Source: Terrabacter aerolatus
GTDB taxonomy: Bacteria; Actinomycetota; Actinomycetes; Actinomycetales; Dermatophilaceae
Direction of reading: 5' to 3'
DNA: 63,741 nt
NCBI RefSeq assembly: GCF_007991735.1
Contig: NZ_BJYX01000022.1
Coordinates: 1 to 63,741 of the forward strand
A program made the position numbers and the translations under genes. A model generated the notes under the pieces. That model had not been told where the DNA came from, searched no databases, and saw only the letters and a program-made list of their open reading frames with translations. Positions 131 through 62,479 of the stretch are shown one piece after another; the stretch's first letter is position 1, and every line of letters starts with the position of its first letter.

Positions 131-1366
131 TCAGGGGGTGGTCGCGGCTGCGGGCTCGCTGGGCTGGGCGCGCTCGAGGACCCCTCGAAATCCCCACGAC
201 ACGAGGACGGCCACGGCCCCGGCACCGACCGTGACGGCATACGCGGGCGTGTGTCCGCCCCAGTCGGCGAGGCGACCGGCCAGGGCCGCGCCGATCGCGT
301 AGCCGAGGCCCGTGGCGGCGGCGAGGACGGTCATCGCCGCTCCCGTGCGCGACGGCGGCGTGACCCGCTCACCCAGGGTGAACGTCGTGATCATGTACGG
401 CGCGACCGTGCAGCCGAGCACGAGCAGCACGGGCACGAGCGCGGGCAGCGACCCGACGAGCAGGAGTGGTGCCGACAGGACCAGCAAACCGGCGGCGAAC
501 CAGCGCAACCGCCTCGACAGCGCGAACCGCGACGGGAGCGCCGCCACCGCCAGCCCCGCCAGGACGCTGCCCACACCGAGCAGGGCGTGGAAGTACCCCG
601 TCAGGCCGGGCGAACCGGCCGCGGTCGCGAGCACCGACGTGCCCGTCTGGACCGATCCGAAGACCGTGCCGACGAGCAGCTGCGCGGTCGCGAGCACGGC
701 GAAAGCCGGCGTCAGGAGCCGGCCCACGGCGCCGGCGCCGCTCGAGGTCGCGGCATGCGTGACCGTCGCCGTCTCGTGCAGGGCGAACCACGTGCCGAAG
801 ACGGCGAGACCGGCGGCCGCCAGGGCCAGGGCCGCGGTGGGGCTCGCGGCGGACACCCCGAGGCCGACGAGCGCCGGCCCGAGGACGAAGGACGCCTCGT
901 CGGCCGCGCCCTCGTAGGAGAAGGCGGCGTCGACGAGCCGATGCTGTCGAGAGCCCGAGTCCGCGGTGATCGGCCGCCACCGCACCCGCGCCAGCGGGCC
1001 GATCTGCGGCAGCAGCAGACCCGCGACCGCACTCGCGACCGCGGCCACGCCCCACGGGAGTCCGGCGCCGACGACCACGAGGATGCCGGCGATGCCGAGG
1101 CCGCCGCCGATGGACTGGAAGGCCACGACGCGACGCTGGCCGAGCCGGTCGGCACGGGCGCCCCAGAACGGTGCGCCGACCGCGTTGGCCACGGCGAGCG
1201 CGCCGGCGCAGAAGCCACCCGCGCCGTAGCTGCCGGTGGCCGACGACACGAGCAGGAGGGTGCCCAGCTGGCTCATCGCGAGCGGCAGCCGTGCGAGGAA
1301 GGCGACGACGATGTACGTGCGGCCGGTGAGGCCGAAGAGGTGGCGGTACGAGTCGATGGGTGACAC
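131..1366 (-). CDS. MFS transporter, 411 aa
   Basis: This is an integral membrane transporter of the major facilitator superfamily with about 12 hydrophobic segments. The loop after the second segment carries a G-A-R-A-D-R-L-G-Q-R-R signature, the usual MFS cytoplasmic loop motif. The GTG start gives S-P-I-D-S-Y-R before the first membrane segment. The family includes drug exporters, but no residue here names a substrate. It stands alone: the gene behind it ends at 1625 with a terminator hairpin between, and a tandem repeat follows it. The C-terminus is a short Ala/Pro tail. Confidence 0.85.
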   Translation of the reverse strand: MSPIDSYRHLFGLTGRTYIVVAFLARLPLAMSQLGTLLLVSSATGSYGAGGFCAGALAVANAVGAPFWGARADRLGQRRVVAFQSIGGGLGIAGILVVVGAGLPWGVAAVASAVAGLLLPQIGPLARVRWRPITADSGSRQHRLVDAAFSYEGAADEASFVLGPALVGLGVSAASPTAALALAAAGLAVFGTWFALHETATVTHAATSSGAGAVGRLLTPAFAVLATAQLLVGTVFGSVQTGTSVLATAAGSPGLTGYFHALLGVGSVLAGLAVAALPSRFALSRRLRWFAAGLLVLSAPLLLVGSLPALVPVLLVLGCTVAPYMITTFTLGERVTPPSRTGAAMTVLAAATGLGYAIGAALAGRLADWGGHTPAYAVTVGAGAVAVLVSWGFRGVLERAQPSEPAAATTP

Positions 1367-1574
1367 GAGGGCGGCTCCGGATCTGGTCGCGGGGTGCGCG
1401 ACACGCTCGCGTGCCTACCCGCCCATCAGGTCACGCCGGATCCCTGTGCGCTCCCGATTCTACGCGGTCGGTGGGGCTGGGCCGCACGCCGCACGCCGCT
1501 CGGCGGGAGTCGGGCGTCGGGAGTCGGGAGTCGGGAGGCGGCGGGAGCCGGTGCGAGGTTCGCCGGGAACGGCA

Positions 1575-1608
1575 CGGGCGGGCACCCCCAGTTGGGGATG
1601 CCCGCCCG
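1575..1608 (-). terminator. Hairpin terminator after the secreted repeat protein
   Basis: Inverted repeat with arms CGGGCGGGCA (1575-1584) and TGCCCGCCCG (1599-1608), plus inner C/G pairs. It lies 17 bp past the stop of the minus-strand gene 1625-2986. There is no clear U-tract, as is usual in high-GC actinobacteria. The stretch 1500-1535 beside it carries short GTCGGGA repeats. Confidence 0.7.
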
Positions 1609-1624
1609 GCCCTCGTGCGGTGCG

Positions 1625-59612: not shown

Positions 59613-62231
59613 TCAGCGCTCCGTGCCGGTCAGCCCCGCGTCGGGGTAGACCTGGTCGTCGGGCACCGCCGGACCGGCCGTGATGTTGACCCCGAGGGCC
59701 TCGTCGAGGGCGGCACCCTCGGGAAGCTCCGGCAGGTCGTCGGCCGGGCGGTGGGCCGAGTCGGGGTGGGCCATGTCGGAGAAGGTGAACTTCTCCTCCT
59801 TACCCTCACCCTCGGTGTCGATCTTGATGTACTGACCGGAACCGAACTCGGCGAAGAGGATCTTCTCCGACAGGGCGTCCTCGATCTCGCGCTGGATGGT
59901 GCGGCGCAGCGGGCGCGCACCGAGCACGGGGTCGTAGCCCTTCTTGGCCAGCAGGTCCTTGGCCGCGGGCGTGAGCTCGATGCCCATGTCCTTGTCCTTG
60001 AGCCGCTTGTCGAGCTTGGCGATCTCGAGGTCGACGATCTGCGTGATCTCCGCGCGGTTGAGGTGCGGGAACACGATGGTGTCGTCGACGCGGTTGAGGA
60101 ACTCGGGCCGGAAGTGCTGCTTGAGCTCGTCCGTGACCTTGGCCTTCATCCGCTCGTAGTCCGACAGCGTGTCCGGACCGGCCGAGAAGCCGAGCGACGT
60201 CTTGGAGATGTCCCTCGTGCCGAGGTTGGTCGTCATGATGATGACGGTGTTCTTGAAGTCGACCATCCGACCCTGCGAGTCGGTGAGGCGGCCGTCCTCG
60301 AGCACCTGCAGCAGCGAGTTGAAGATCTCCGGGTGGGCCTTCTCGACCTCGTCGAAGAGCACGACGGAGAACGGCTTGCGGCGCACCTTCTCGGTGAGCT
60401 GGCCGCCCTCCTCGTAGCCGACGTAGCCGGGAGGCGAACCGAAGAGACGGCTGACGGTGTGCTTCTCGGAGTACTCCGACATGTCGAGCTGGATCAGCGC
60501 GTCCTCGCTGCCGAAGAGGAACTCGGCGAGCGTCTTTGCGAGCTCGGTCTTACCGACACCGGTGGGGCCGGCGAAGATGAACGAGCCACCCGGGCGGCGC
60601 GGGTCCTTGAGGCCGGCACGCGTGCGGCGGATCGCCTGGGACAGCGCCTTGACGGCGTCGTCCATGCCGACGATGCGCTTGTGCAGCTCGTCCTCCATGT
60701 GGAGCAGTCGGCTCGACTCCTCCTCGGTCAGCTTGAACACCGGGATGCCGGTGCTCGCCGCCAGGACCTCGGCGATGAGCTCCTCGTCGACCTCGGCCAC
60801 GACGTCCATGTCGCCCGACTTCCACTGGGCCTCACGGGCGGACTTCTCCTGGCGCAGGCGCTTCTCGTCGTCGCGGACGCGGGCCGCGCGCTCGAAGTCC
60901 TGGCCGTCGATGGCCGACTCCTTCTCGCGCACGAGCGCGGCGATCTTCTCGTCGAACTCGCGCAGGTCCGGCGGAGCCGTCATGCGGCGGATGCGCAGTC
61001 GCGCGCCCGCCTCGTCGATGAGGTCGATCGCCTTGTCGGGCAGGAAGCGGTCGTTGACGTAGCGGTCGGCCATGTTGGCCGCCGCGACGAGCGCCGCGTC
61101 GGTGATCGTGACCCGGTGGTGGGCCTCGTAGCGGTCGCGCAGACCCTTGAGGATCTCGATCGTGTGCGGGAGCGTCGGCTCCTGCACCTGGATCGGCTGG
61201 AAGCGTCGCTCGAGCGCGGAGTCCTTCTCGATGTGCTTGCGGTACTCGTCGAGCGTCGTCGCACCGATCGTCTGCAGCTCACCGCGGGCGAGCATCGGCT
61301 TGAGGATGCTCGCGGCGTCGATGGCGCCCTCGGCGGCACCTGCACCGACGAGCGTGTGGATCTCGTCGATGAAGATGATGATGTCGCCGCGGGTGCGGAT
61401 CTCCTTGAGGACCTTCTTCAGGCGCTCCTCGAAGTCACCGCGGTAGCGGCTGCCGGCCACGAGCGAGCCGAGGTCGAGGGTGTAGACCTGCTTGTCCTTG
61501 AGCGTCTCGGGCACCTCGCCCTTGACGATGTCCTGGGCGAGGCCCTCGACGACGGCGGTCTTGCCGACGCCGGGCTCCCCGATGAGGACCGGGTTGTTCT
61601 TCGTGCGGCGCGACAGCACCTGCATGACGCGCTCGATCTCCTTCTCACGCCCGATGACCGGGTCGAGCTTGCCCTCGCGGGCAGCCTGCGTGAGGTTGCG
61701 ACCGAACTGGTCGAGCACGAGGGAGCCCGCAGGCGTGCCCTCGGCCTGGCCGGGGCCGACACCGGCGCCGGCCTTCTCGCCGCCCTGGCCACCTTGGTAG
61801 CCGGAGAGCAGCTGGATGACCTGCTGGCGGACCTTGTTGAGCTCCGCGCCGAGCTTGACGAGGACCTGGGCGGCGACGCCCTCGCCCTCGCGGATCAGCC
61901 CGAGCAGGATGTGCTCGGTGCCGATGTAGCTGTGGCCGAGCTGGAGTGCCTCGCGGAGCGAGTACTCGAGAACCTTCTTCGCGCGGGGCGTGAAGGGGAT
62001 GTGGCCGGTCGGGGCCTGCTGCCCCTGGCCGATGATCTCCTGGACCTGGGCCCGGACCGCCTCGAGCGAGATGTCGAGCGATTCGAGGGCCTTCGCGGCG
62101 ACGCCTTCGCCTTCGTGGATCAGACCCAGGAGGATGTGCTCGGTCCCGATGTAGTTGTGGTTGAGCAGGCGAGCTTCCTCCTGCGCGAGGACAACCACCC
62201 TTCGGGCCCTGTCGGTGAACCGTTCGAACAT
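59613..62231 (-). CDS. clpC: ClpC, Clp/Hsp100 AAA+ unfoldase
   Basis: Unfolds substrates and feeds them to ClpP. The 872-aa protein has two N-terminal Clp repeats ([11 protein letters not shown] at 1, and [11 protein letters not shown] at about 78), AAA-1 with G-E-P-G-V-G-K-T (about 220), a middle UVR-like coiled coil (about 410-470), AAA-2 with G-P-T-G-V-G-K-T-E (about 560), and a ClpP-binding loop in the C-domain. It starts ATG with AGGAGA upstream. A 7-bp inverted repeat lies in the leader. A plus-strand open frame of over 1000 codons runs antisense and is a shadow. Confidence 0.97.
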
Positions 62232-62247
62232 GTTCTTCTCCTGACTG

Positions 62248-62265
62248 ATCGAGAGACATCTCGAT
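62248..62265 (-). promoter_or_regulatory. clpC: Inverted repeat in the clpC leader
   Basis: ATCGAGA-gaca-TCTCGAT, 17 bp upstream of the clpC ATG. It could be a repressor or activator site, or an RNA hairpin before the AGGAGA ribosome site. It is not an obvious ClgR or CIRCE match. Confidence 0.45.
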
Positions 62266-62479
62266 GCTATCCGTGCCCGCTGTGGACGAGCACACCCCGA
62301 CCAACGCCGGTCGTGTCCCGCCTGTTCCCCATCCTGAGCGTGATCGGCTCAGGTTCTGCCGCTGTTCGCCGTGGGCGGACACGCGCGGGCGGGGAGTCGT
62401 CATCCTTGCGTATGCCGTGTCGTACCCGTGGTGCCCCGCGCCGCCACCGCGCGCCGCGGCCCCCAAACCTCCGCCGCGG

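Follow-up and report, generated by a model that had tools for sequence, protein, structure and literature searches.

Uptake words are known only from the Neisseriaceae, with their DNA uptake sequence (DUS), and the Pasteurellaceae, with their uptake signal sequence (USS), according to PMC12616744 (in part). Inverted pairs of the word have been reported for the neisserial DUS (PMC3630211, in part), and clade-specific dialects built on a common core have been described for both DUS and USS (excerpts of PMC12616744 and PMC3630211). The actinobacterium Micrococcus luteus takes up DNA by use of Flp/Tad pili together with ComEA/EC (PMC4322843, excerpt). Here we describe the octamer GTATGCCG, a word greatly over-represented in a 63,741-base stretch of the Terrabacter aerolatus genome (Dermatophilaceae; assembly GCF_007991735.1, contig NZ_BJYX01000022.1, positions 1 to 63,741; 72% GC), hereafter called the window, and give our reasons for thinking that it probably serves as a DNA uptake sequence. 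The original prediction, made from the window, had picked out the core heptamer TATGCCG and left its function open among recombination, segregation, methylation, nucleoid binding and a selfish repeat; the reading that fits best, a DUS, was not named.

The window contains 46 copies of TATGCCG between positions 235 and 62417, the total and span first given, with 26 on the plus strand and 20 on the minus strand rather than the 27 and 19 originally counted. Markov models of orders 1-3 gave an expectation of only 1.7-2.4 copies, and thus the claimed over-representation stands. The expectation rose to 12.6 at order 4 and to 35.6 at order 5, the last value being high because a model of that order largely absorbs the word itself. 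The letter following TATGCC was G in 46 of 46 cases and the letter preceding TATGCCG was G in 43 of 46 (C in two and A in one); hence, the unit is the octamer GTATGCCG. The octamers having one mismatch to it are present in 0-11 copies in the window, mostly at or below expectation, and CGTATGCCGT accounts for 19 copies. As the flanks vary between copies and only the eight letters are sharp, a copied longer repeat as the source of the word was considered and not supported.

The whole genome (4,420,518 bases in 62 contigs) has 2163 copies of GTATGCCG (1072 + 1091), or one per 2.0 kb, versus 195 of the reversed word, which was the control for these counts. (In genome G013, at C1:15914-15928, two copies lie head to tail with a one-base overlap, and such an overlap also generates the reversed control word.) The order-3 comparison covered 483,741 bases of the genome, in which 276 copies were found where 12.0 were expected (about 23-fold), so the genome count is far from the order-3 expectation. 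Nor are shuffled words equally enriched. Among the 1680 permutations of the eight letters (median 11 copies in the same bases) GTATGCCG ranked third, and the two commoner permutations were themselves expected at 267 and 311 copies. One single-mismatch word, GGATGCCG, was about twofold raised (98 copies versus 51 expected at order 2), as mutation or codon bias might produce, but no single-mismatch word exceeded its expectation by more than about 2.5-fold. Moreover, synonymous shuffling of the genes gave 17.1 +/- 3.6 copies (maximum 26 in 100 shuffles) versus the 183 real copies, whereas an assembly artefact is contradicted by separately assembled relatives that carry the same sites. Explanations by mutation, codon bias or artefact are already refuted by these counts.

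The copies are divided evenly between the strands over the genome (P 0.70), on one 320-kb contig stretch (86 versus 94, 95% interval 0.40-0.55, with both strands represented in each of eight 40-kb bins) and in two distant 100-kb stretches of a relative assembled as one contig (41 versus 42 and 37 versus 29). Their spacing is slightly more even than random (coefficient of variation 0.87 versus 0.99 +/- 0.06). Chi-type words and FtsK-orienting polar sequences (KOPS) are polar along the replichore, and the argument first made from the window, that the balance speaks against a strictly polar KOPS-like role, is borne out on this larger scale. The same balance counts against a Chi-like recombination hot spot that would regulate the helicase-nuclease AdnAB or RecBCD in repair. 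Such a hot spot would account for a conserved, lineage-specific octamer present in thousands of copies, but GTATGCCG also favours intergenic regions and inverted pairs (see below), placements that Chi is not known to need. We therefore regard a Chi-like role as quite unlikely.

Gene context was scored in 463,741 bases (the window plus parts of three contigs, about a tenth of the genome) with genes called by a custom script and not by an established gene finder. In this sample 183 of 261 copies lie in genes, 72 are intergenic and six fall on edges, which corresponds to 1.55 copies per kb between genes and 0.44 within them, a 3.5-fold difference. A cost in codon usage had been proposed for both the tyrosine and the alanine codon of the word. 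The tyrosine part stands: TAT makes up 7% of tyrosine codons, and 116 of the 180 TAT codons lie inside GTATGCCG. The alanine part fails for most copies because the dominant reading, xxG TAT GCC Gxx (116 of 183 coding copies), uses GCC, the commonest alanine codon; GCA, which is 5% of alanine codons, is used in the 35 coding copies that have the antisense reading. The predicted starts of nadB and mutY do fall on the ATG of the word, as had been noticed (Table 1). Beyond the core, intergenic copies have the wider consensus G..G..cGTATGCCGTgTGgC, and T at position +9 has a frequency of 0.73 in intergenic copies and 0.45 in genic copies versus 0.14 of all bases.

Neighbouring copies no more than 100 bp apart tend to face each other or diverge. 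Opposite orientation was found in 12 of 14 such pairs of the T. aerolatus genome and in 12 of 13 from 26 loci of other genera (together 24 of 27, P 2.5e-5), and larger samples gave 7 of 8 in G125, 10 of 13 in G087 and 9 of 10 in G033, the last for the dialect GTATGCG. The nine same-strand close pairs of GTATGCCG in G033 are a single tandem array, ten copies about 62-63 bases apart (G033:C11:332713-333282) in a genus that otherwise uses the other dialect. Ten of the 14 close pairs of T. aerolatus are intergenic and several are near gene ends, which together with the intergenic excess is what transcription terminators or a regulatory site would give. However, most copies are single, the majority lie inside genes, and no T run follows the paired copies in any of the 14 pairs, and this makes such a role highly improbable.

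The word is conserved among relatives. In alignments of the window with seven congeners, each cell being one site in one congener, 198 cells were aligned and 161 of them kept all eight letters of GTATGCCG (110 of 139 for genic sites and 51 of 59 for intergenic or edge sites), the corresponding values for all 8-mers being 0.36-0.47 and 0.30-0.39. These 198 cells are not independent because the congeners are related, and 103 of the 301 possible cells were unaligned and left out. The alignments ignore bases inserted in the relative, which affects one of 26 sites, scored as kept in G016; that site is spurious because those 60 kb hold no exact GTATGCCG. Where the tyrosine is conserved, the codon TAT was retained in 66 of 82 cells within GTATGCCG versus 6 of 28 outside it. 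When four genomes were divided into 2-kb bins, the tenth of bins with the lowest GC was depleted of the word in every one of them (P 0.0017, 0.0007, 7e-5 and 0.025). Depletion in low-GC and possibly foreign stretches, together with a sharp, non-palindromic word that is patchy among close relatives, would suit a role in which a DNA modification or defence system recognises the word or uses it to mark self. Genomes generally avoid restriction targets, however, whereas GTATGCCG is enriched about 23-fold over the order-3 expectation and at a cost in codons, and we consider a site of this kind very unlikely.

The distribution of GTATGCCG was scored in 186 Dermatophilaceae genomes, a genome being called enriched at >=80 copies per Mb and >=2.5 times the control and near background at <35 per Mb. 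By these thresholds 112 genomes from 31 genera are enriched (90-1356 copies per Mb), including nine of nine from Terrabacter, whereas 62 genomes from 22 genera are near background and 12 fall in between. A protein encoded in the window has its closest named matches in Terrabacter, with 85-87% identity over the best segment. None of 362 genomes from 19 other families of the order passed. Counts there reached 180, with an equal control, and the nearest case, G500 (118 copies in about 1.5 Mb, control 47), just misses. Within word-rich genera single species have lost the word: G016 has 37 copies (congeners 1251-1660), G092 has 19 (congeners 1062 and 3681) and G122 has 50 (congeners 394-1901). The 60 kb around mutY in G016 and in G092 lack any copy.

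One genus, g13, uses the one-letter dialect GTATGCGG. Its genomes contain 849-1112 copies of GGTATGCG (controls 10-32) and only 153-322 of GTATGCCG. Outside g13 the count of GGTATGCG is low in most genomes and has its maximum, 392, in genus g42 (range 22-392), where it is found in addition to GTATGCCG; some other word-rich genomes show a moderate rise (G095, 254 versus a control of 99; G110, 278 versus 48). In 400 kb of G033 the fuller g13 form was GTATGCGGTG, one letter from GTATGCCGTG, and 200 kb of G125, a member of g42, showed a preference for GGTATGCC(G). Hence, GTATGCCG, GGTATGCC(G) and GTATGCGGTG are clade-bound dialects with a shared core. These observations bear on the possibility that some members of the family have a protein of the nucleoid, of segregation or of chromosome organisation that binds the word. 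A genome-wide, conserved word found on both strands, spaced a little more evenly than random and limited to one family within the order is compatible with such a protein, but this role alone predicts neither one-letter dialects nor depletion at low GC nor loss from single species of word-rich genera. No candidate for it emerged either, although no search aimed at one was made. We judge it unlikely.

Other candidate words were seen in some relatives. No replacement word of comparable strength was found in the motif-poor samples, which are small (20-36 kb in most cases and 96 kb in G016 and G092). TCCGATT and GGATGCCG were rejected as dialects in Humibacillus sp. DSM 29435 (L005) because their copies form a tandem array or are clustered; at about 13080-14900 this locus has an array carrying GTCCGAT that repeats about every 51 bases. 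Likewise CCCCTTCG was rejected in L098 (G099), its count being inflated by an inverted duplication, and it is weaker in L006. The duplication, at about 8.3-15.4 kb, also inflates the L098 count of CCCCCTTCG. In L006 (Janibacter indicus, 22.7 kb) CCCCCTTCG has 11 copies versus 0.6 expected and could be a further word enriched in a genus that lacks GTATGCCG. Finally, GGATGCCG is raised in L063 (Herbiconiux daphne, 18 versus 3.4) and L088 (G025, 16 versus 3.1); there, and in its twofold rise in T. aerolatus, it could reflect codon bias or a further dialect.

Density, strand balance, soft flanks around a sharp core, an excess between genes, pairing in opposite orientation, tolerance of costly codons, conservation, clade-bound one-letter dialects and sporadic loss make up the described DUS signature, and for this reason we favour, with moderate confidence, the reading of GTATGCCG as a DUS/USS-like uptake sequence. 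Each of the rival explanations lacks several of these traits. We infer that these bacteria are competent and that a receptor binds GTATGCCG. The mechanism would be as follows: (i) a DNA receptor that the competence machinery exposes at the cell surface would bind word-bearing DNA, in either orientation, better than other DNA, (ii) such DNA, mostly from lysed kin, would be pulled in, perhaps by a Tad/Flp-type pilus, and (iii) it would then pass ComEA and ComEC, be protected by DprA and recombine into the chromosome. Word-bearing fragments would replace homologous word-free stretches more often than the reverse, and through this bias the word would accumulate and be held even at rare codons and start codons. 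A shift in receptor preference would shift the word by one letter to give a dialect, and loss of biased uptake would let it decay.

Profile searches of the T. aerolatus genome found comEA-comEC, dprA and a Tad operon encoding a TIGR03819 ATPase, a DUF4244 pilin and minor pilins of the TadE_Rv3655c and Rv3654c-like types (NCBIfam names), plus a second Tad cluster with Flp_Fap pilins. A second HHH_3 protein (G000:C3:111175-111369) is a stronger match than ComEA and occurs in Terrabacter and in G049, G050, G051, G053 and G107. Over the family, matches were found for comEC in 180 of 186 genomes, for HHH_3 (comEA-type) in 182 and for dprA in 185, and the TIGR03819 Tad-type ATPase matched in 184 and exceeded its cut-off in 168. 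The stretch around this ATPase was compared in 20 genomes, 12 word-bearing and eight word-free. A DUF4244-like pilin is near the ATPase in 7 of the 12 and 7 of the 8, and thus these pilins do not mark word-bearing genomes. It was not seen in the stretches of the word-bearing G013, G014, G015, G093 and G111 or of the word-free G122, some of which end at contig ends. In L178-L180, from the word-bearing G014, G015 and G017 of the genus of G016, no pilin adjoins tadC and pairs of a secreted and a membrane protein are found instead; G017 does have a DUF4244-like pilin, at a distance of about 6.5 kb.

Several results weigh against an uptake role. None of the genes tested over the 186 genomes tells whether a genome bears the word: nearly all genomes, with the word or without it, have comEC, HHH_3 and dprA, and the presence of the Flp_Fap pilin (91 of 186) does not follow that of the word. 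As the competence genes are also present in word-free relatives, they explain neither presence nor loss of the word. The six genomes in which comEC had no match (G024, G059, G130, G137, G177 and G181) are all word-bearing; these are incomplete or fragmented drafts, 58-95% complete. The near-complete, word-rich G102, G132, G146, G151 and G156 are not, by E-values, among the genomes above the TIGR03819 cut-off, which weakens the Tad part of the proposal. PilT, which drives pilus retraction in the families with a known DUS, exceeded its cut-off (TIGR01420) in only two of 186 genomes, and T. aerolatus is not one of them. The two proteins (G094:C2:219671-220690 in L107 and G180:C175:140-1150 in L108) are each adjoined by a weaker second ATPase match, and G182 has two partial PilT matches just below the cut-off. 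No receptor for the word was found among the genes compared. There are three ways to read this: a more specific receptor decides, the word-free species have a competence that is silent or unspecific, or the uptake reading is wrong.

The placement data also contain discordant points. Conservation is lower outside the genus, the next genus (G053) keeping 9 of 17 aligned sites, and the intergenic excess is absent or weak in G125 and in one stretch of G087. The highest-GC tenth of T. aerolatus bins is poorer too (0.73 versus 1.26 copies per 2 kb). Window stretches aligned in none of six congeners are only mildly poorer than shared ones (4 copies in 9.1 kb versus 26 in 44.2 kb), and alignment in one to four congeners goes with a higher density (13 copies in 10.4 kb). 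Taken together, the GC bins and the alignments may lean toward the depletion in foreign DNA that the uptake reading would predict; the trend is plain in the low-GC bins but not in the window stretches lacking congener alignment. A literature search by titles and abstract openings, without preprints or subscription papers, found no report of natural transformation in the Dermatophilaceae; the same search gave no report of GTATGCCG or of actinobacterial uptake sequences.

A broader proposal, to which we give slightly less than even credence, is that a code for the uptake of self DNA has arisen independently for a third time with GTATGCCG, and for the first time in Gram-positive bacteria. GTATGCCG and its dialects would serve the family as marks on its genomes, to be read by a component of a Tad/Flp-type pilus or by another surface receptor having no neisserial counterpart. 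Species with another dialect or none would be partly isolated genetically, and the letters would have converged on a nearly neisserial word. If this is true, having a third code, from a remote phylum and with a pilus of another kind, would make it possible to test whether uptake bias by itself suffices to create such codes. Natural transformation, improvable by a short tag, would also be predicted for actinobacteria in which we found no report of it. The search for a receptor could draw on the 112 species with strong enrichment and the 62 near background within this one family, on the three genera in which one species has lost the word and on a single clean dialect.

Table 1 Exact positions of the word in the window and the two genes that start on it. 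Kept, all eight letters present in the aligned relative.
Feature	Position	Strand	Remarks
GTATGCCG	235..242	-	
GTATGCCG	5590..5597	+	intergenic; left arm of inverted pair with 5663
GTATGCCG	5663..5670	-	intergenic; right arm of inverted pair with 5590
GTATGCCG	7767..7774	+	
GTATGCCG	8761..8768	-	
GTATGCCG	10478..10485	-	intergenic; inverted pair with 10493; 5 bp past predicted gene end
GTATGCCG	10493..10500	+	intergenic; inverted pair with 10478
GTATGCCG	10812..10819	+	
GTATGCCG	12697..12704	-	
GTATGCCG	12929..12936	+	
GTATGCCG	15432..15439	+	kept in 6/6 aligned congeners
GTATGCCG	16003..16010	-	intergenic
GTATGCCG	16803..16810	+	kept in 6/6 aligned congeners
TATGCCG	17377..17383	+	leading G replaced by C
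GTATGCCG	19983..19990	+	inverted pair with 20058 inside gene
GTATGCCG	20058..20065	-	inverted pair with 19983 inside gene
GTATGCCG	21491..21498	-	kept in 6/6 aligned congeners
GTATGCCG	21660..21667	+	kept in 6/6 aligned congeners
GTATGCCG	27023..27030	+	
GTATGCCG	27439..27446	-	intergenic
GTATGCCG	28714..28721	+	intergenic
GTATGCCG	29582..29589	+	kept in 7/7 aligned relatives (6 congeners, G053)
GTATGCCG	30364..30371	-	intergenic; kept in 7/7 aligned relatives (6 congeners, G053)
GTATGCCG	32862..32869	+	ATG is predicted start codon of nadB
nadB, L-aspartate oxidase	32864..34687	+	starts on word; TIGR00551 over cut-off
GTATGCCG	34405..34412	+	
GTATGCCG	34649..34656	-	
TATGCCG	35255..35261	-	leading G replaced by A
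GTATGCCG	35478..35485	+	different in 8/8 aligned relatives (7 congeners, G053); perhaps recent gain
GTATGCCG	36002..36009	-	
TATGCCG	37081..37087	+	leading G replaced by C
GTATGCCG	37156..37163	+	intergenic
GTATGCCG	38650..38657	-	
GTATGCCG	40389..40396	+	kept in 7/7 congeners
GTATGCCG	40834..40841	-	intergenic
GTATGCCG	41679..41686	+	
GTATGCCG	42213..42220	+	kept in 7/7 congeners and two other genera (G053, G093)
GTATGCCG	43561..43568	-	intergenic
GTATGCCG	44841..44848	+	intergenic; kept in 7/7 congeners
GTATGCCG	46793..46800	-	kept in 7/7 congeners and G053
GTATGCCG	47411..47418	+	
GTATGCCG	51327..51334	+	ATG is predicted start codon of mutY; kept in 6/6 aligned congeners and G053
mutY, A/G-specific adenine glycosylase	51329..52222	+	starts on word; best NCBIfam match TIGR01084, below equivalog cut-off
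GTATGCCG	52313..52320	-	kept in 7/7 congeners
GTATGCCG	54114..54121	+	kept in 7/7 congeners and G053
GTATGCCG	56148..56155	-	
GTATGCCG	59429..59436	-	intergenic
GTATGCCG	62410..62417	+	intergenic

Among known systems, the Chi and KOPS octamers share the length and genome-wide occurrence of GTATGCCG but differ in being strand-polar. M. luteus belongs to the same phylum, and T. aerolatus likewise has a Tad operon with TadE-type minor pilins and comEA-comEC. M. luteus needs two tad clusters, however, whereas Flp_Fap pilins match in only 91 of the 186 genomes here, and its competence paper mentions an uptake sequence 0 times (PMC4322843). The pasteurellacean USS (AAGTGCGGT) is also a genome-wide enriched word with an extended form, and has two clade-bound types, but the word itself is unrelated and its proposed receptor is a type IV minor pilin (PMC12616744, in part). 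The neisserial DUS (ATGCCGTCTGAA) resembles the present word in its thousands of copies, the lack of general orientation bias, intergenic inverted pairs, dialects of a few letters that follow clades and open reading frames that start on the ATG of the word (excerpts of PMC12616744, PMC3630211 and PMC2346458). It differs in that the carriers here are high-GC actinobacteria in which PilT is scarce, and in the sharp core GTATGCCG. The intergenic consensus ATGCCGTgTG (for example, the copies at 10478-10500) agrees at 9 of 10 letters with the neisserial ATGCCGTCTG of an unrelated phylum (PMC2346458, excerpt), a near-match that is probably coincidence or convergence.

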